In this document: one piece after another, positions 14,081-30,626 of the stretch | How positions within the stretch are numbered: position 1 is the stretch's first letter | Layout: each line of letters begins with the position of its first letter | IMG/VR virus record: IMGVR_UViG_3300028361_000073 | Span: 1 to 36,819 of that record | Length of the DNA stretch: 36,819 bases | Source of the DNA: a virus | Reading direction: 5' to 3' (one strand) | Made by a program: the position numbers and the translations under genes | Notes under the pieces: generated by a model | What the model saw: only the letters and a program-made list of their open reading frames with translations | What the model was told of the DNA's origin: nothing | Databases searched by the model: none

Positions 14081-16234
14081 TTATTCTATGATATTTTCTG
14101 CGGTTTGGTTAAAAGCTTTGGCCGCGGCTGAATTTACTATCACGTCCGCTCCCATCGCGTTCTTTATGTCAACAAGCAAATTACCCATTGCTTGCATCTT
14201 CTCGTTTTGCATTCTAATCATAGCGGCCATCTGATTAAACTGGTCGCGTGCGGCTTCTAGTTCTACTCTTTTGGCCTCTAATTCAATGCGTTCTTGCGTT
14301 TGTTGTATCTTCGCTCCGTCAACAGCAAGGTCACTTTGTAGCTTCTCTTGCTGCCCCATGTATTTAACTTCCATTTCTTTCATAGCAATCTGGTGAGAAG
14401 TAGCTTGATTCTGCTGCGCCATTAATGCAGTCTCCGCTTTCATCTGCTCAATCTTCATTGCCATTTCTTCGACGCTAGGCTCTTGAGGTTTATTGGCCGC
14501 CTCTTGTGCTGCCGCTCTCTCGTCTTCCGTCATCTGCTCGATAGGTATAACGCCGTTGTTGAGCGCTATTGATCTCATACGCTCTGCTATTTTATCGAAT
14601 CCAGGCGCATTAATATTCTTTAACCATATGTCGCCAGCAACTTGTATTAAACTAGGGTCGCGTTCCATAGCTCGCAAGAACATTTCCGATGACTCTTGCT
14701 GACGGTTCTTGTATGCTGGGCCAATGTCACAAACCACATCATACTTGCCTTGCGTTAGGTCGTTTAATGTTACGTCTTGGCCGCTTTGTTCGTCCGTGAC
14801 TACATTGTTCATCATAATCATTTCGATAGTGCCATCTTCTTTTAAAAGTCGCACTTGTCTGGTAGCGTCATAAACATAAGGGATTGCTTTGTTTAATACT
14901 ATGCCTGTTCTGCGTATCGCAGTCTCCATAGCCTCGAAGTATACGCTCGTACCGTTATTTCCGCGGTCAATCTGCTTCTCTATCGCTACGCCGCTCTGTA
15001 AATTAGTATTAGCGCCCATGTTAGCTGCAAACATGCCAGCGCTTCGGCTAATGGATTCATCTGAGCTTTGAATTAGTAATTGAACAGCGGCATTTGGGCT
15101 GCTTGCTCCACCTTCATAAGGCGGCGGCACTGCTCCTTGCGCGTTATAGAACTGCACTGGTTCCATGTTGGTGTTCATGGTTCTGATAGATTCTTCGTGC
15201 CCACGAGCTTGTCCCTTGGTCATGAATATTTTCTTACGTGGCGCCAATGCGACTTCTTCTACATTACGACTGACCGCGTAGTTGTGAACGCGCTGCATGT
15301 CCATTAACTTTTCGACCGCGCCGCGATATATAATTTTGCCTTCCGCTACTTCGAAATTACCATAACAGGGAATTATTGGAATGCTATCGAAAACCGTTTT
15401 TTGTTCTTCGCTTATCCAGCCGTTAGCATCTAACATTCTAAAGCAGCAAACATCGCGTGTCACTTCTCTGGAATCCTCGACTGTTATTCCCGCTGCAGCC
15501 AGCTCGTCTAATACGCTTTCTGTACCTTGGTCTGCGCGCAGCACTTTCCCGTCAGACATCAGTAAGACGGTAGACTTTTCTTTCTTTAGCCAGTAGTAAT
15601 GGCCGATAGTAACCGCGTCAGGCTTGTAGTAATATGCATTGTTCCACGAGTCGTTGCCTATGCTGACCAGAGACTTGCCTGGAAAATCTTCTGCAGCGTG
15701 GTCTTTGGAAATGTAATGCAAAACGACACCCCATCGCGCTTCAGAGCCGTCATTAGACAAATCGCCTGGGTCTAGCCACACTCTAGCGTGAGCATCGTGA
15801 ATTGACTCCACCATTAAATCTTGATCAAAGCTTTCTGAGTCATAATAGTCGTTAGTAACTAACCAAGCGCTAAATCCGCCTTTTATCATCTTACGCCCCG
15901 CCTGAGCGAAAATAGAATCAGCGTCACTTAGGTTGCGTATATTTCTTATAAGCCCGTCGCGCATGTTAGCGAGAGCGAGAGTGGCATCCCCGCCCGCGGG
16001 TCTAACTTTTATACTAAATTCGGCATTTTCCATCTCACCAGCTATCTGGTTAATGATGGGATTGGTGCGGTCATCGGTGTAACGAGGCTTGCCGCGCATT
16101 TTCGTTATAATGTCTGGTTCCCACTGCCCGTCTTTTTTATCTACAAAGTTATGGGCTTCACGCACGTTAGAACGCATATCGCGCTGAGTGCCTTGCGCTT
16201 CTCTTATCTTTATTACAATGTCGCTTGCTTTCAT
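14081..16234 (-). CDS. Portal protein, P22 gp1-like
   Basis: The protein has 717 residues from the ATG at 16234, which overlaps the terminase stop as TAATG; P22 gp1 has 725. TTG and GTG codons further up are possible but unlikely. The N-terminal DGQWEPDIITKMRGKPRYT, NPIINQIAGEMENAEFSIKV and VRVWLDPG-type segments match the P22_portal family. In that family, twelve subunits form the DNA channel. The C-terminal ~130 residues (QEPSVEEMAMKIEQMKAE, then QERIELEAKRVELEAARDQF) form a long helix or coiled coil, analogous to the barrel that extends into the capsid in P22. Confidence 0.9.
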   Translation of the reverse strand: MKASDIVIKIREAQGTQRDMRSNVREAHNFVDKKDGQWEPDIITKMRGKPRYTDDRTNPIINQIAGEMENAEFSIKVRPAGGDATLALANMRDGLIRNIRNLSDADSIFAQAGRKMIKGGFSAWLVTNDYYDSESFDQDLMVESIHDAHARVWLDPGDLSNDGSEARWGVVLHYISKDHAAEDFPGKSLVSIGNDSWNNAYYYKPDAVTIGHYYWLKKEKSTVLLMSDGKVLRADQGTESVLDELAAAGITVEDSREVTRDVCCFRMLDANGWISEEQKTVFDSIPIIPCYGNFEVAEGKIIYRGAVEKLMDMQRVHNYAVSRNVEEVALAPRKKIFMTKGQARGHEESIRTMNTNMEPVQFYNAQGAVPPPYEGGASSPNAAVQLLIQSSDESISRSAGMFAANMGANTNLQSGVAIEKQIDRGNNGTSVYFEAMETAIRRTGIVLNKAIPYVYDATRQVRLLKEDGTIEMIMMNNVVTDEQSGQDVTLNDLTQGKYDVVCDIGPAYKNRQQESSEMFLRAMERDPSLIQVAGDIWLKNINAPGFDKIAERMRSIALNNGVIPIEQMTEDERAAAQEAANKPQEPSVEEMAMKIEQMKAETALMAQQNQATSHQIAMKEMEVKYMGQQEKLQSDLAVDGAKIQQTQERIELEAKRVELEAARDQFNQMAAMIRMQNEKMQAMGNLLVDIKNAMGADVIVNSAAAKAFNQTAENIIE

Positions 16235-17721
16235 TATTCCCACCAAGAGTCGAAGTTAATTATCGTTTCAGAAGTTCCATAGCTGATTTCAGGAATTTCC
16301 ATGGCCATCGCAAAACAATCGGCGATATTCGGGCTAACGATTTTATGTTTACGCCACATTTCGTCCTTGCTCATCAACTGAATCTTACCTGCATTGTTAT
16401 GCTTCTTAGGTATTCTACAAACCTCAGAGCGTAATTTATTTAACAGCGGCATATCGCCAGCTATAGAAATTATCTCATCAGGGTCGATGTAAGCCTTCAT
16501 TTTGACAGCTTTAAAGGTCAACCACATGCGTTCGGCTAACTTAGTATAATACTGTGCCCGCTTATTAGCAAACATTTGTTTATTTGTTTTATCCCCTTCC
16601 GCCCACTTTCCTTCATAGGGCATATCTGGGTCATCAGGACTCTCAGAGCCGCGGTACATTCTAGCTTCGCACTTAATGCCGTTCAGCCCACGATCAACAT
16701 CATCCCTTATTAGCGCTCCAAGACCATCGCCATCCCACACAAACAAATCGACCCGCTCCTGTCGTGCTTTGCGCAAGGCATCCTGCAAGTCGATGTTTCC
16801 GTTCTCACCAACAAACTCGCCGAAGTCATAGAAGTGTATGCCCTCGCGTATAGAATAACCCGTATTGTCTCGCCCAGTGTCCGAAGGGTCGAGCGCCATT
16901 ATCTTAGCGCCAGTCGGTACAATGCCCAGAACCTGCGCGGCATCAATGCACGCATCGAACCATTCAGGCGGTATTAAACTATTCTCGACTTCTTCCAAGT
17001 AATGCCCCAACCATTTGTGATTATACTCCGCACGAGAAAGATTCTCATAGTCATCCGCTCTCTCTTGCTCCAACCCTGATCCAAGCCACCACGTTTCAGG
17101 CAAGTCGTTATAGTTCGCCTGCATAACCATTATGGTGTCGTCTTCATAGAAGCCGCACCTTTCCAGCGTGGGTTCTGCTCTTTCTAAATATTTCTTCGCC
17201 ACTGCATTTTCGCGTGACTTCCTGTTCATGCTTATCCAGATTTCAGGAATCGCTAATTCCTCCAGCGTTATCTCGCCTTTCAAGTAAGACGTGGCCTGCA
17301 ACGCGGTAAGACGAAGCGAGGCCGTTAACACACGCAATGTTTCTTCTGTCAGCGACTCACCTTCCTCAATCCATATACCGTCCAGCCCCTGCAAGATGCC
17401 TTTTAACGAGGTCACGTTGCGCTCCAATCCTTTATAGAATGTGTAGCCGCCTGAATCGTGAATATAGGTTCTGTTTTTTTCGATAAACTCCGCGTCCCAG
17501 CCGCACCGCTCTGATTCGTCTTTCAATGTACGGTGAACTGATTCGTCAATCGAGTTTTGGAATTCACGAGCGCAGCACCACTTTTTACCCATGCGCACTC
17601 TGGAGAGAACATAGTCAGCAACGAATGTCGTTTTTGTAGAAGCTCTGCCGCCGACAAATATCTTTACACGCTTAGGCCGCGTAATGGCTGGGCCGAACTG
17701 CTGTAGGCATTCGATGTCTAT
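16234..17721 (-). CDS. Terminase large subunit, probable ATA start
   Basis: This ATPase/nuclease drives DNA into the procapsid. The frame read back to 17721 encodes 495 residues. It includes an N-terminal IFVGGRASTKTT (Walker A, residues ~28-39), LDGIWIEEGES (Walker B), and nuclease acidic motifs LDPSDTGRDNTG and FVWDGDGLGALI. The nearest conventional codon, GTG at 17598, would remove Walker A and cannot be the true start. An in-frame TAA lies at 17765-17767, and no ATG, GTG or TTG lies between it and Walker A. AAGGAG (17728-17733) stands 6 nt before an ATA at 17721-17719, which I take as the start. A promoter with a perfect -10 sits just upstream. An ATG-to-ATA mutation or sequencing error is possible. 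Confidence 0.85.
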   Translation of the reverse strand: MDIECLQQFGPAITRPKRVKIFVGGRASTKTTFVADYVLSRVRMGKKWCCAREFQNSIDESVHRTLKDESERCGWDAEFIEKNRTYIHDSGGYTFYKGLERNVTSLKGILQGLDGIWIEEGESLTEETLRVLTASLRLTALQATSYLKGEITLEELAIPEIWISMNRKSRENAVAKKYLERAEPTLERCGFYEDDTIMVMQANYNDLPETWWLGSGLEQERADDYENLSRAEYNHKWLGHYLEEVENSLIPPEWFDACIDAAQVLGIVPTGAKIMALDPSDTGRDNTGYSIREGIHFYDFGEFVGENGNIDLQDALRKARQERVDLFVWDGDGLGALIRDDVDRGLNGIKCEARMYRGSESPDDPDMPYEGKWAEGDKTNKQMFANKRAQYYTKLAERMWLTFKAVKMKAYIDPDEIISIAGDMPLLNKLRSEVCRIPKKHNNAGKIQLMSKDEMWRKHKIVSPNIADCFAMAMEIPEISYGTSETIINFDSWWE

Positions 17722-17755
17722 GGAAATCTCCTTGATAGAATCTAATTGTGGCCCA

Positions 17756-17784: not shown

Positions 17785-18282
17785 ATGATATTTTAATCTG
17801 TCCTATTTATACGGGGAAAAATAAATCTGGCTCGTGAATAGATGGAAAAATTTCGTGGAGGGGCGTACTAGATATAAATATAATTCAAGTAACTTTAAAC
17901 AGGAGTATACTACCCCCTTCGCGGATCAGCGCGAGAAAGGGCGGGAGTCCCTGCGCCTTCAGCCTATGGCACGTTGCTCCACGTCATGTTACTGCATAGC
18001 ATAGCAGGTTGCTCCACGTATGCTGCCATACAGTGAGTCTATCTGCTATATGCGAGCATAGCATAGCAGCACAAGGCATAAGGAGTTGAGTGCATAAATA
18101 AATATCCATTTAATTTAATTACATATTATATATAGATGCTACTATAAGCCAACGTATGGCATGAGGTTGGACTATCGTAGCCAAGCCAACCAAGTGGGTA
18201 GCCTCTCAGTGATCGTGGAATGCCTTATAAATCAATGGCTTACGTGCAGTAAATTTATTTAACAATTTAATTACGAAAGTTG
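17762..18282. other. Noncoding divergent region with repeats and potential RNA structure
   Basis: No ORF of coding character was found here. The region lies between the divergent terminase and early transcripts. It contains a GTATAC palindrome near 17905, G/C-rich segments with short inverted repeats (CGCG..CGCG near 17920-17940; GGGAGTCCC), two direct repeats (17973-18069), and AT-rich blocks near 18100-18135 and 18245-18300. At 18143-18229 nested complementary segments could form a branched fold: TATAAG/CTTATA, GGCAT/ATGCC and GGTTGG (18165-18170)/CCAACC (18186-18191). Possible roles are a replication origin, a packaging or regulatory site, or a structured RNA. No tRNA-like cloverleaf was found. 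Confidence 0.45.
17973..18069. repeat. Interleaved short direct repeats in the divergent region
   Basis: GTTGCTCCACGT occurs exactly at 17973-17984 and 18008-18019. GCATAGCATAGCAG occurs exactly at 17994-18007 and 18056-18069. Spacings are 35 and 62 nt. Short exact copies in noncoding DNA suggest protein-binding iterons or a recombination relic. Confidence 0.7.
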
Positions 18283-18310
18283 TAGACTTAATGATTTAAT
18301 ACGGTATAAT
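18283..18310 (+). promoter_or_regulatory. Early promoter for the gene at 18389
   Basis: TAGACT (18283-18288), 16-nt spacer, TATAAT (18305-18310). It is one of four similar plus-strand promoters (see 19952, 20915, 26720). The transcript would start near 18317, giving a ~70-nt leader that contains a boxA-like element. Confidence 0.65.
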
Positions 18311-18337
18311 GATTGCAGGTCGAGAAGACGCGGCCTA

Positions 18338-18348
18338 GTTCTTTAACA
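18338..18348 (+). promoter_or_regulatory. boxA-like antitermination element
   Basis: GTTCTTTAACA lies in the leader of the 18389 gene. It matches the core CTCTTTAACA of bacterial rRNA leader boxA (NusB/NusE binding) at nearly every base. It could recruit Nus factors or titrate them. No boxB-like hairpin was identified beside it. Confidence 0.45.
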
Positions 18349-18388
18349 ATTTGAAACTAAAATCAACTAAACTATTAGGAATATAATC

Positions 18389-18913
18389 ATGCCTGCAATA
18401 AGAATTGAAGATAAAGTAAAGACAGAAAAGTATATGGATATTAATACGGTTGCCGCTCAGTTCAGCGAAGTAGTTAATGACACAGGTTATTGCGCAGTTG
18501 TCGCGTTGGCCGTTGTCGCTGAGATAGAATATGAAGCGGCATATGAGTTATTAAAGACCCATGGACGTGAAGACCGTGAAGGCACTAATAAAGCTACGTT
18601 GGATGCCGCTTTAAAGGCATTGGGACTTAAGCAGGTGTTTGTTGAGCCGCGTGAATTCATTAAAGATTATCGCGGCATTCATTCTGAAGTACTTAAGAAT
18701 GTTACAACGCACCACCCCAAGCGCTTTAATGAAGTATTTACAGACGGCTACAAGTATTTGTTTTATTCTAACAGCCATGTCTCAGCTATCGTTGACGGTG
18801 TAAACCACGACTATACGAAAGGGACTGCTAAACGAGTAAAGACTATTGCCGCGATAATACCGCTGACCAGTAAGATTAGCGAGTATTTAAAAGGCCGCGG
18901 CTTTATGAAGTAA
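18389..18913 (+). CDS. Small protein with possible Cys-His-Asp (C39/papain-like) active site
   Basis: The protein has 174 residues. The pattern DTGYCAVVALAVV (Cys35 at the start of a helix), then a helix with AYELLKTHGR and GTNKATLDAALKALG, then FYSNSHVSAIVDG (His130) and NHDYTKG (Asp141) is the Cys-His-Asp arrangement of bacteriocin-processing C39/papain-like folds. I infer that fold from the pattern only. It has its own promoter, boxA-like leader and terminator, so it is a one-gene transcription unit wedged between the two terminase subunit genes. That is typical of an added early gene ('moron') that could act on a host or defence protein. The target is unknown. The start follows AGGA with a spacer of about 9 nt. 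Confidence 0.75.
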   Translation: MPAIRIEDKVKTEKYMDINTVAAQFSEVVNDTGYCAVVALAVVAEIEYEAAYELLKTHGREDREGTNKATLDAALKALGLKQVFVEPREFIKDYRGIHSEVLKNVTTHHPKRFNEVFTDGYKYLFYSNSHVSAIVDGVNHDYTKGTAKRVKTIAAIIPLTSKISEYLKGRGFMK

Positions 18914-18920
18914 GGAACTG

Positions 18921-18946
18921 GGACGCTGAAAAGCGTCCTTTTTTTT
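18921..18946 (+). terminator. Rho-independent terminator
   Basis: GGACGCT-GAAA-AGCGTCC, a perfect 7-bp stem with a GNRA-type tetraloop, is followed by eight T residues, starting 8 nt after the stop of the 18389 gene. Confidence 0.9.
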
Positions 18947-19031
18947 GCTTTAAATTTTATCAGCTCATTATGACGTGGTTTGGCGTGGAACAAACAATCA
19001 ACTCAGAACAACTCCCATCAAGTCAGGACAC

Positions 19032-19095: not shown

Positions 19096-19518
19096 TCAAC
19101 TCTCGTCAGACTTCGACACGCCCTTAAAAGTCGCTGGTGCAAGGCTGCCGTCCGATGAACTATGATCAATTTCTGACCGCTCATTCTTGCCATGGTTCGC
19201 CGACAAAAGGAACTTTGTCATTCCAGAGTTGAACTCGCCTGATATGCCTTTATTCTGTAAAATACGCGACTGTTTCGCTAAGGCGACACTAACTGCTGCT
19301 TTGAACATTGGGTACTTTTTTCTGTATTGAACGATAGTTGTGTCATCTATTCCTAGCCATTCCTGTAACCCTTCTTGAGTTGGAATAACATCACCCATAA
19401 GCAAAAATCCGTCGTTTCCATACTCTAAAACAGACTCAGGCATATCTTCTTCATACTTTGTTGGCCTGCCATGTTTATTAACTTCCCAGTGAACTCGAAC
19501 GCCTTCTGATATGTTCAT
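19096..19518 (-). CDS. Terminase small subunit (P22 gp3/Sf6 gp1-like)
   Basis: The protein has 140 residues. GRPTKYEEDMPESVLEYG is followed by a helix-turn-helix-like segment (TQEGLQEWLGIDDTTIVQYRKK). The family signature comes next: LQNKGISGEFNSGMTKFLLS and ANHGKNERSE. Small terminase recognises the packaging site and loads the large subunit; in P22 the pac site is inside this gene. It is alone on the minus strand, separated by about 1.4 kb and an oppositely oriented gene from the large subunit, whereas P22 has the two adjacent. GAGAAG lies about 6 nt before the ATG. Confidence 0.85.
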   Translation of the reverse strand: MNISEGVRVHWEVNKHGRPTKYEEDMPESVLEYGNDGFLLMGDVIPTQEGLQEWLGIDDTTIVQYRKKYPMFKAAVSVALAKQSRILQNKGISGEFNSGMTKFLLSANHGKNERSEIDHSSSDGSLAPATFKGVSKSDES

Positions 19519-25668: not shown

Positions 25669-25859
25669 TGGAAAACTACCCTGATGACATAAGAAGCTAC
25701 GACAACGACCACCGCTCACCATTTTATAGTGAGCCTAACGCTTGCGAGTATTGCGAAACTGAGCTAGAGGCCGAAACCGACTGCGATGACAATGGTAACA
25801 TGTTCAGTAACGAGAGCTGTCCTAATTTATCCTGCGAGAAGTTCGAGGTGAATGTATGA
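25668..25859 (+). CDS. Small acidic cysteine-rich (zinc-ribbon-like) protein
   Basis: The ORF has 63 residues, with AAGGA 7 nt before the ATG. It overlaps the helicase stop and the next start. Cysteines at positions 26, 29, 39, 51 and 56 (CEYC; CDDNG; CPNLSC) suggest a metal-binding finger in a very acidic protein. No known family was recognised. Confidence 0.65.
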   Translation: MENYPDDIRSYDNDHRSPFYSEPNACEYCETELEAETDCDDNGNMFSNESCPNLSCEKFEVNV

Positions 25860-26497
25860 GCTACTTAATACATAACCTGCCGCCAATACCTGTAAAGGTC
25901 AGGAAAGAGTTTTTATATGATCACCAAAGCGGTCACGGAGAATACGTAGACGGTATATGGGCATCGGTTAAAAGCATTACAGGGAAAGCCCTGTACTTTG
26001 AAACACTGCTGCCAGAATATGGCGCGTTGTATGATAAGTTGCCTATCAGCGCGTTCCTGTGGCACACCGAAACGCCGTCAGTAAAGCTGTTATCACTAGA
26101 CACGTTGCAGCTTTGGGATTGCTTCGACTATCATATATCAATCCTGCAAAAGCCTTTACTTAACCGCGCCAAGATGTTCGGAAAAGATAAGAAGTTCCAT
26201 CATGGGGATTACATGTTCACGATAGATACCTGTCATGGCGGCGATTCCATCCTAGACACAGGTTTTAGTGAGACTGACCCTGAACATAAGTCCTTTAACA
26301 TATTAAGGCTAGACAACGGGCAGTTCGCCGCGCAACCGAATAACAGATGCGTTTGGATGGATGCTAGTTTAATACCGAGCGAAACTAAAACGCCTGACTT
26401 TAAAGTTTGCACGCAAAACTATGCGGTCGAGGGCACAGATAAGTGGAATGTCGCAAGCAGTGACGAGTGGCAGTACAAAAGCGACGAGGGGAAGTAG
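25856..26497 (+). CDS. Conserved phage protein of unknown function
   Basis: The protein has 213 residues. The opening MSYLIHNLPPIPVKVRKEFL, followed by YDHQSGHGEYVDGIWASVKS, GKALYFETLLPEYGALYDKL and SFNILRLDNGQFAAQPNNRC, is a pattern I recognise from many tailed phages. There it is found near replication genes and annotated as hypothetical. It is rich in aromatic residues and beta strands, with no catalytic motif I can name. It is expressed with the helicase operon. Confidence 0.75.
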   Translation: MSYLIHNLPPIPVKVRKEFLYDHQSGHGEYVDGIWASVKSITGKALYFETLLPEYGALYDKLPISAFLWHTETPSVKLLSLDTLQLWDCFDYHISILQKPLLNRAKMFGKDKKFHHGDYMFTIDTCHGGDSILDTGFSETDPEHKSFNILRLDNGQFAAQPNNRCVWMDASLIPSETKTPDFKVCTQNYAVEGTDKWNVASSDEWQYKSDEGK

Positions 26498-26800: not shown

Positions 26801-27325
26801 ATGGACATTAAGAAAACAACCAACGTCGAGCTTTTGGCTTTTTACAATAAGCACTGCGGGGAGCTAAACCTAGCGAGAATAGAGAAATTTGAAAGCCGTA
26901 AAGACGCTGTTCAAAAAGTAACTGATATGGTTGACTTGCTTGGTGACGAGAAATCAGCACCGAAGAAGAAAACCAAAGAGCCGAAAGCGCCAGTAACTAA
27001 TGAACAGCTTCGTGCTAATATCTCTGCTGGCGTAGTAGAAACTTGGAAAGACCCTGTTGTCGCGGCTAAGCGTAAAGAGCGCCACGCTGTTATGATTAAC
27101 GGCACTGATATGTTTCAGTCGGTATTAGCCGCGTACATCGGATTAAACCTTAATCCTAAAGACCACATTAAGTTTCGCAAAGGATTGAAGCTAGAGCCGA
27201 TTGGCACCTCAGTTAAGCACTTAGGAGCGCAGTGGACTTTAATTCCATTCGCTGATTATCAGGAAGCCGCGTCCGCTCAAAAAGCAGCCGATAGAGAGAA
27301 GGCCGATGCCGAAGTTGCCGTGTAA
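26801..27325 (+). CDS. Conserved phage protein, putative nucleic-acid-binding
   Basis: The protein has 174 residues, with AAGGA about 8 nt before the ATG. MDIKKTTNVELLAFYNKHCG and RIEKFESRKDAVQKV begin a pattern seen in many phage hypothetical proteins. A Lys/Pro linker (KKKTKEPKAP) follows. The block VETWKDPVVAAKRKERHAVM, then FQSVLAAYIGLNLNPKDHIK and FRKGLKLEP resembles small HTH-containing modules. The C-terminus is Ala/Glu/Lys-rich. It may be a regulator at the head of its operon; the evidence is similarity by eye only. Confidence 0.65.
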   Translation: MDIKKTTNVELLAFYNKHCGELNLARIEKFESRKDAVQKVTDMVDLLGDEKSAPKKKTKEPKAPVTNEQLRANISAGVVETWKDPVVAAKRKERHAVMINGTDMFQSVLAAYIGLNLNPKDHIKFRKGLKLEPIGTSVKHLGAQWTLIPFADYQEAASAQKAADREKADAEVAV

Positions 27326-29167: not shown

Positions 29168-29958
29168 ATAATGAATTATTAGTCTGCGACTTAGATGGCA
29201 CTTTGTTCGATGATGAGTGGCGCAGGCACCTGTTGCCTGAATCTCAAGAATTACAACCTAAAGACAGCGATTATGATGATTATAATCAGCGTCACGTGGA
29301 TGATATGCCGATTAAAGGGGTGGTTAAATTCGTAAATGAATTTGCTGGGGACGTTCTATTCTTAACTGCGCGGCCAGCAAAGTACAGGACAGCTACAAGG
29401 CATATGCTGACTACGCATACAAGTAGATACGGAATGGGCAAAGGGCTTTTATTTATGCGACCTAATGGCGACATGAGAGACTCGCCGACCCTGAAACTAG
29501 CTCTTTTGTCTGAGCATCTTAAGACCAGTAAGTACTATGAACACATAGTAGTTCTGGATGATAGAGAAGACGTGAGAAAGAGATTGTGCACTTTTATAGA
29601 AAATTCAGCAGGAATAGACCCGCAAATTTACATGAAGGAGCAGGCGACAGAGCTGCGGCCTTGCGTTAGTCCTTCGACGATACTAGAGAGAATGGCCGAT
29701 ACATACGCTGAGCGTAATATAACATACGGCGATAACTGGAAGAAAGTAGGGGATGTTATGAACCTTCTTTTCCCTTCTGGAGTAGTATTAAAAACGCCTG
29801 AAGACTTTAATAAATGGCACCTGTTCGAGCTGATGATTGTTAAACTAACGCGGTTCGTTAACAGCGAATTAAGCCATCAGGACTCGATTCACGATATTGC
29901 CGTATACGCGGCTATGGTAGAAAGCATTTTGGAGAATGAATCATGCAGCAAAAAGTAG
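29164..29958 (+). CDS. HAD-family phosphatase fused to DUF1599/Nmad1-like domain
   Basis: The protein has 264 residues in two parts. Residues ~1-150 are a HAD phosphatase of the PNK-3'-phosphatase/5'-nucleotidase type: CDLDGTLFDD (catalytic Asp9 and Asp11), FLTARPAKY (motif II), TLKLALL (motif III Lys) and VVLDDREDV (motif IV). Residues ~165-260 (ERMADTYAERNITYGDNWKK, FNKWHLFELMIVKLTRF, DSIHDIAVYAAMVES) match the DUF1599 'nucleotide modification associated domain 1' helical pattern, from memory of the family. It overlaps ThyX by 4 nt and the SDR gene by 16 nt. The fusion points to nucleotide 5'-phosphate chemistry in the same pathway as ThyX. Confidence 0.75.
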   Translation: MNNELLVCDLDGTLFDDEWRRHLLPESQELQPKDSDYDDYNQRHVDDMPIKGVVKFVNEFAGDVLFLTARPAKYRTATRHMLTTHTSRYGMGKGLLFMRPNGDMRDSPTLKLALLSEHLKTSKYYEHIVVLDDREDVRKRLCTFIENSAGIDPQIYMKEQATELRPCVSPSTILERMADTYAERNITYGDNWKKVGDVMNLLFPSGVVLKTPEDFNKWHLFELMIVKLTRFVNSELSHQDSIHDIAVYAAMVESILENESCSKK

Positions 29959-30626
29959 CGGTGGTGACAGGCGCGGCAAGCGGTCTAGGAAAGTTAATAT
30001 CTCAAAAGTTAACGGCGGAAGGCTTTAATGTCGTGCCGATTGATACTCAGTTCGGGCACGACATTACTCAGCCGACTATTTTGAACATGCCTGTTTTAGG
30101 TAGGGTTGATGTATTAGTTAACTGCGCGGGAATTAATAAAATTAACTGGATGGCGGACGTAACTCACAGAGAGTTTATGCGCGTGATAGAAGTTAATGCT
30201 TATGGTATGTTCGCTATGACTCAGCACTATCGCACTGCGCTAGAAGCTACTAAGGGTTCGGTTTGTAATATAGTATCGAACGCCGCTCATATGCCTATGC
30301 GTTGCAGTGCCGCGTATAATGCGAGTAAGGGCGCGGCCTTAATACTTACTAAACAAATGGCGCGGGAGCTAATAGAGGACGGTATAACAATATTTTCCGT
30401 TAGTCCCAATAAGCTAGGCGGTACTGGCATGAGCGAGGATATTGACGCGCAGGTATGTAAGACTCGCGGATGGACTCCTGAAGAAGCGCATAAGTATCAG
30501 GTCGCTGGATTACTGACTAAGAAAGAAACGAGCGCCGCGGCTTGCGCAGAGTTTATTGTATTTTTACTATCTGAAAAATATCGCCACGAAGCATTAGCTG
30601 GTTGCGATTTACCATACGGAGCATAA
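29943..30626 (+). CDS. Short-chain dehydrogenase/reductase (SDR)
   Basis: The protein has 227 residues, a classical SDR length, with GGAGA 7 nt before the ATG. VAVVTGAASGLGK (TGxxxGxG, residues 9-16) binds the nicotinamide cofactor, and LVNCAGIN is the NNAG-like block. The catalytic tetrad is intact: Asn85, Ser112, Tyr125 and Lys129 (YNASK). SDRs oxidise or reduce alcohol/carbonyl groups with NAD(P). It is inside the ThyX cluster and translationally overlapped, so a hydroxymethyl/formyl-type or sugar substrate is conceivable but not shown. It has a few SDR-core substitutions such as NCAG for NNAG. Confidence 0.85.
   Translation: MQQKVAVVTGAASGLGKLISQKLTAEGFNVVPIDTQFGHDITQPTILNMPVLGRVDVLVNCAGINKINWMADVTHREFMRVIEVNAYGMFAMTQHYRTALEATKGSVCNIVSNAAHMPMRCSAAYNASKGAALILTKQMARELIEDGITIFSVSPNKLGGTGMSEDIDAQVCKTRGWTPEEAHKYQVAGLLTKKETSAAACAEFIVFLLSEKYRHEALAGCDLPYGA

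Follow-up and report, generated by a model that had tools for sequence, protein, structure and literature searches.

The closest described relatives of the gene analysed here lie in PHROG 3754, a phage protein family annotated as "unknown function" whose members in isolated phages include those of Pseudomonas phages of Otagovirus and Pakpunavirus and of Acidovorax phage ACP17; some GenBank homologues carry the depositor label "peptidase", and a limited literature search (weak evidence in itself) found nothing on PHROG 3754 or on a C39-like, host-directed phage family. Cysteine proteases are classic host-takeover tools in eukaryotic viruses, and to our knowledge few phage cysteine proteases with a host target have been described. 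According to a survey of papain-like proteins published in 2023 (PMC10318531), C39 peptidases are fused to ABC transporters; in the passages covered, a phage family of the PHROG 3754 type was not found. Cleavage of the alpha subunit of host RNA polymerase is set off by the phage protein Rac (PMC7552054), and for jumbo phages it has been argued that well-conserved peptidases process virions and that patchily distributed ones are expected to act against the host (PMC7824862).

The analysis covers a 36,819-base virus record (referred to hereafter as the window, at its full length). It is a mosaic phage, with P22/Sf6-like terminase, portal, scaffold and coat genes running leftward and a replication module running rightward (Pam3 gp33/gp34-like proteins, primase, ThyX, a PNK phosphatase domain, DNA polymerase and helicase). 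Between the terminase genes TerS and TerL, on the opposite strand to both, lies a 174-residue ORF (Table 1), an arrangement described in the earlier note and borne out by coordinates and terminase profile matches alike. Sequence comparison makes it certain that this ORF is a real gene, because most of its product aligns at ~40% identity with proteins of independent phages and because it has a dN/dS of ~0.2 (~0.17–0.22 in close-relative pairs at 88–90% identity, the ratio being measurable only in the more divergent pairs of close relatives).

Table 1. Coordinates of the gene between the terminase genes, its predicted catalytic codons, candidate expression signals and flanking genes in the window.
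Feature	Position	Strand	Evidence
174-aa ORF, predicted papain-like (C39-like) cysteine enzyme gene, PHROG 3754	18389–18913	+	profile match, relatives, AlphaFold, Foldseek, VIA-align
Cys35 codon (TGC), predicted nucleophile	18491–18493	+	67/67 distinct homologues; start of helix 35–44; ComA residue 17 alignment
His130 codon, predicted general base	18776–18778	+	68/68 homologues; first residue of strand 130–135
Asp141 codon, predicted third triad residue	18809–18811	+	67/67 homologues; after strand 138–140
Second boxA-like copy TTATTTAACAATTT, imperfect, upstream of promoter-like site	18255–18268	+	sequence
Sigma70-type promoter-like site TAGACT-16-TATAAT	18283–18310	+	10/12 consensus positions
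boxA-like leader element GTTCTTTAACAATTT (15-mer)	18338–18352	+	exact GYTCTTTAANA
Shine-Dalgarno-like AGGA, 8 nt ahead of ATG	18377–18380	+	sequence
Intrinsic terminator GGGACGCT-GAAA-AGCGTCCT-TTTTTTT	18920–18947	+	strong; two separate scripts
TerS gene, flank	19096–19518	-	PF16677 E 6.7e-14; phrog_309
TerL gene, flank	16234–17721	-	PF04466 E 8e-12

The extent of TerL required separate attention. The ORF as listed lacks a Walker A motif, and an intron or split gene was suspected; this was rejected, since an open frame that includes the motif (GGRASTKT) extends beyond the GTG at 17598 in the upstream direction, and Rfam gave no intron. No ATG, GTG or TTG lies ahead of the motif, and the likely start is an ATA at 17721–17719 with AAGGAG 6 nt upstream; the TerL genes of the two nearest terminase relatives (L016 and L018) have an ATG close to this place. 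The start region (17719–17733, minus strand) shows the same 45 bases in four sibling contigs, which argues that the ATA did not arise from one isolated sequencing error. In other samples, sibling contigs begin or end within the TerS–TerL gap (at 17917, 17966 and 17973), two of the ends falling exactly at a 19-nt direct repeat (17966–17984 / 18001–18019); for this cluster of ends (17917–18019) a repeat-driven assembly break, population variation and a genome end are alternatives.

On sequence grounds the protein belongs to PHROG 3754, though as a divergent member: residues 15–153 match positions 4–140 of the 145-position phrog_3754 profile (E 4.1e-16, 60.5 bits), and the same profile is matched by all 21 aligned relatives. 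It has the Cys, His and Asp of the described members and its model superposes on that predicted for the ACP17 protein (TM 0.89 by target length), but it is only 23–28% identical to the isolated-phage members, as against ~40% to its nearest contigs, and is ~40 residues longer than the Otagovirus versions. A tblastn search of isolated phages with the window protein alone gave no match at E 0.1; with a relative of intermediate position as query, 155 records of isolated phages were recovered, of which 148 are Pseudomonas phages and the others Acidovorax, Myxococcus and Tunturiibacter phages. An IMG/VR alignment query (83 stretches confirmed, 80 kept), with other loci added, yielded ~70 distinct relatives, mostly from viral contigs, in whose tree the window protein forms a long branch in a poorly resolved part and the terminase-adjacent members are scattered in several places. 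Among 84,980 genomes of bacteria and archaea, scanned twice with short conserved peptide patterns and tblastn, no relative was confirmed, a result to be read as "rare or absent" rather than "never". The protein is a member of a known and widespread phage family, and it is also predicted to belong to the papain-like superfamily.

The earlier note had pointed to Cys35, His130 and Asp141 as following a C39/papain-like order, and the enlarged family upholds this. All three residues are invariant among the distinct homologues that have a letter at the position (Table 1), down to ~25% identity with the window protein; Arg60 is also invariant (68/68). Since these three residues do not vary while their neighbours Asp136 (40/67) and His140 (49/67) do, the triad would consist of exactly Cys35, His130 and Asp141. 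Asp136 had been a candidate for the third position, being invariant in the first 21 sequences, and was discarded on finding Asn, Gly or Glu there in many of 69. The assignment of a predicted Cys35–His130–Asp141 triad is thus supported, its placement being read from strand and helix positions in the models (see below). Papain-like folds also cover amidases, acyltransferases and inactive members, some of which have lost the cysteine (the C39-like domain of HlyB is one such example), and the protein might by analogy be a catalytically dead, papain-fold binding protein; we regard this as extremely improbable against a triad that is invariant in ~67 distinct sequences.

The window protein (pLDDT 87, pTM 0.82) and a 41%-identical relative (pLDDT 91, pTM 0.85) were modelled with AlphaFold, and the two models agree with one another and fit the proposed Cys-His-Asp positions. 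By DSSP, Cys35 opens a helix, His130 opens a strand and Asp141 follows the next strand, with Cys31, His125 and Asp136 of the relative placed in the same way, so that both models have the papain-like layout in which a cysteine begins the core helix and a β-sheet later in the sequence carries the histidine and the third residue. From the strand register, a DG turn between the strands would produce a tight hairpin, and His130 and Asp141 should share a face. The best PDB matches listed by Foldseek are PeiR (top for the window protein), PCAT1, ComA and Josephin-2 (E 0.01–0.05), and in VIA-align all 50 of the 50 matches listed for each model appear to be papain-like, as judged by their titles. The top VIA-align matches listed are Josephin-2 with ubiquitin for the window protein (Z 8.7, rmsd 3.8, 108 aligned) and PeiR for the relative (Z 9.0, rmsd 3.2, 111 aligned), values of 8–9 that sit near the 7–8 commonly reached by models that have no clear match. 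A sequence profile run against 177,635 distinct PDB sequences matched ComA proteins alone (E 0.06–0.75), with the family cysteine falling on ComA residue 17, and Pfam C39 (PF03412) is matched by 3 of 21 members (best E 0.0079). Given the uniform match list, the ComA-only profile matches, the Pfam C39 hints and the invariant triad, we consider that the protein very probably adopts a papain-like fold.

Which branch of the superfamily it resembles bears directly on what it might do. Predicted fold, Cys-His-Asp order and the position of the cysteine are shared with C39 peptidases (the N-terminal domains of ComA and PCAT1), but the ORF is a single domain to which neither an ABC transporter nor a membrane part is fused, no double-glycine substrate is apparent, and the His-to-Asp spacing is 11 residues rather than the 16 of ComA. 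The window protein gives no PF03412 match at E ≤ 10; because of this and of the missing transporter, it is C39-like in shape and not a member of the C39 family. With Josephin deubiquitinases and PeiR the resemblance is likewise one of fold, at similar Z, and no sequence similarity was found. The Josephin-2 match with ubiquitin, together with BpJOS, viral tegument-like DUBs and UfSP among the structural matches, could indicate a counter-defence isopeptidase that removes the ubiquitin-like tags of Bil or type II CBASS, to which we give a slim chance: the Josephin matches are tied with those to C39 peptidases and come with no sequence link, and the PADLOC anti-phage defence profiles yielded only PtuB at E 0.044, below the cut-off. 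(Matches to DUF6945, NblB and PtuB at E 0.02–0.04 are below cut-offs and were read as chance.) The rank of PeiR, a pseudomurein endoisopeptidase, at the head of one Foldseek and one VIA-align listing would similarly be expected of a cell-wall peptide hydrolase serving lysis, yet a single domain of ~150 residues in which no wall-binding domain or export signal is seen, from a family whose genes sit among replication genes, makes such a role very unlikely. A papain-like enzyme other than a peptidase (an amidase, or an acyltransferase resembling transglutaminase or phytochelatin synthase), whose substrate would be a small molecule, a modified nucleotide or the side chain of a protein, would accord with the presence of phytochelatin synthase Alr0975 among the matches (Z 6.3 and 6.8) and with the ThyX, polynucleotide kinase/phosphatase and short-chain dehydrogenase genes of the window; we find it rather unlikely, as the best and most numerous matches listed are C39 peptidases and isopeptidases, and those metabolic genes lie at least 8 kb away in another transcription unit.

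Comparison of loci across relatives shows a patchy gene. The nearest terminase relatives, L016 and L018 (TerL 77–79% identical), have TerS–TerL gaps of ~450 and ~315 bases from which the family gene is absent, and it is absent throughout a 39.9-kb record from one of the two (G001). PHROG 2402, a replication-module gene that neighbours many family loci and is present in the window too, provided a second comparison: of 44 long contigs carrying it, five have the family at strong scores and one is marginal, the five being a lower bound since contigs may be incomplete. These absences from the relatives' gaps and the low count among PHROG 2402 contigs support an accessory, phage-borne gene, as the earlier note had suggested, and argue strongly against a conserved, essential structural one.

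The neighbourhoods of 70 distinct members show where the family resides. Within 3 kb, a helicase gene is found on the same strand at 18/70, VRR-NUC at 12/70 and a DnaE-like polymerase at 11/70; TerL (14/70) and TerS (13/70) also occur, on the opposite strand every time. The terminases concerned are of differing types (phrog_38, phrog_3717/2 and Sf6/P22-like), and in the other terminase-adjacent cases found the gene stands upstream of TerS, the position between TerS and TerL occurring only in the window. The insertion at the terminase locus is not as unusual as it seemed, relatives in several other lineages adjoining terminase genes on the opposite strand as well. Because several lineages adjoin terminase genes and many others lie in replication clusters, the place where late genes meet oppositely directed early genes is most simply read as a common landing site. 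The same neighbourhoods could be taken to mean that the substrate is a phage protein, be it a replication protein or a virion precursor, rather than a host one, given relatives that directly adjoin helicase, VRR-NUC nuclease, primase and polymerase genes and a window gene set between terminase genes. We doubt this: the gene is missing from most PHROG 2402 phages and from the nearest terminase relatives, the terminases beside it are of unlike types, and it does not seem to be needed by any fixed partner from the phage.

Within PHROG 3754, the window gene is distinguished by its solitary place between terminase genes and by having a promoter-like site, a boxA and a terminator to itself. The 15-mer GTTCTTTAACAATTT of its leader is one position off the E. 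coli rrn boxA. The 11-mer GTTCTTTAACA within it (18338–18348), ending 40 nt ahead of the ATG, is an exact match to the published gamma-proteobacterial boxA consensus GYTCTTTAANA (PMC5725501). This 11-mer has two exact occurrences in the window and so is not rare, the core alone being weak; when 360-nt stretches were drawn at random from the window, 6 of 2000 held a boxA match with one mismatch, a number that overlap with the leader site itself would yield, and none held one with two mismatches, so that nothing close to the 15-mer turned up elsewhere in the sampled stretches. The terminator is the first of the sites listed in 20 kb. The promoter-like site is one of six equally good sites in 20 kb, where promoter-like sites in total are no more numerous than in shuffled sequence, and is by itself not beyond chance. 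Of the complete expression unit proposed in the earlier note, the strong terminator and exact boxA consensus thus stand and the promoter does not rise above shuffles; an independent-looking transcription unit is supported. We discounted boxA and terminator as traits of the family, as no boxA was seen upstream of PHROG 3754 relatives and a terminator follows the gene immediately in only 4/70 family loci, the window included. A structured RNA in the neighbouring gap (17900–18240) was also discarded, fold z-scores being only −1.1 and −0.5; the Rfam STnc540 sRNA match in this non-coding stretch (17984–18148, plus strand) scores 24.3 bits against a gathering score of 38 and is probably chance.

Combining these strands, we propose a small, stand-alone, cytosolic C39-like cysteine peptidase, accessory to the phage, that would cut a host protein, an explanation that we consider about evenly poised between right and wrong. 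By analogy with the superfamily, the enzyme would use Cys35 to hydrolyse a cytoplasmic peptide or isopeptide bond: from the start of the core helix, Cys35 would attack the carbonyl, with His130 activating it and Asp141 orienting His130. Its own transcription unit would allow expression by host RNA polymerase independently of the oppositely running late terminase operon, and the boxA leader may bind host NusB/NusE to render that polymerase Rho-resistant, or may tune translation. The enzyme would then cleave a host protein in the infected cell, in host takeover or counter-defence. We infer a host target from patchy presence, a recurrent replication-gene neighbourhood, the lack of a virion link and absence from the scanned bacterial chromosomes, and from the argument made for patchy jumbo-phage peptidases (PMC7824862); a role in host attack or anti-defence is plausible, and membership of replication clusters would also fit the processing of a phage replication protein. 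Patchy distribution and actual or expected cleavage of a host protein are features that the window protein would share with Rac (PMC7552054) and with the patchy phage peptidases (PMC7824862), Rac itself being a predicted acetyltransferase and not a relative. A broader proposal, that PHROG 3754 is a widespread counter-defence family of cytosolic papain-like (iso)peptidases which disable a protein of an antiphage system or take off ubiquitin-like tags, and which lytic phages exchange as single-gene cassettes at the early/late boundary, seems to us unlikely. With its invariant triad, its place beside replication genes and homologues in culturable Pseudomonas phages, this patchy family is directly testable, and if the host-directed peptidase reading is true, PHROG 3754 would gain a function.

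Elsewhere in the window, a 213-aa product (25856–26497, plus strand) matches PHROG 3704, "ferredoxin", at E 1e-96 with no Pfam match, and the label looks doubtful; a further ORF of 174 aa (26801–27325, plus strand) has a weak match, under the cut-off, to PF20301, "predicted novel nucleotide synthetase" (E 0.0076). A short-chain dehydrogenase/FabG-like gene (29943–30626, plus strand) adjoins the ThyX and PNK-like genes. In L018, the end of TerS (1870–1960) is a Pro-Glu repeat built from tandem CCTGAG units.
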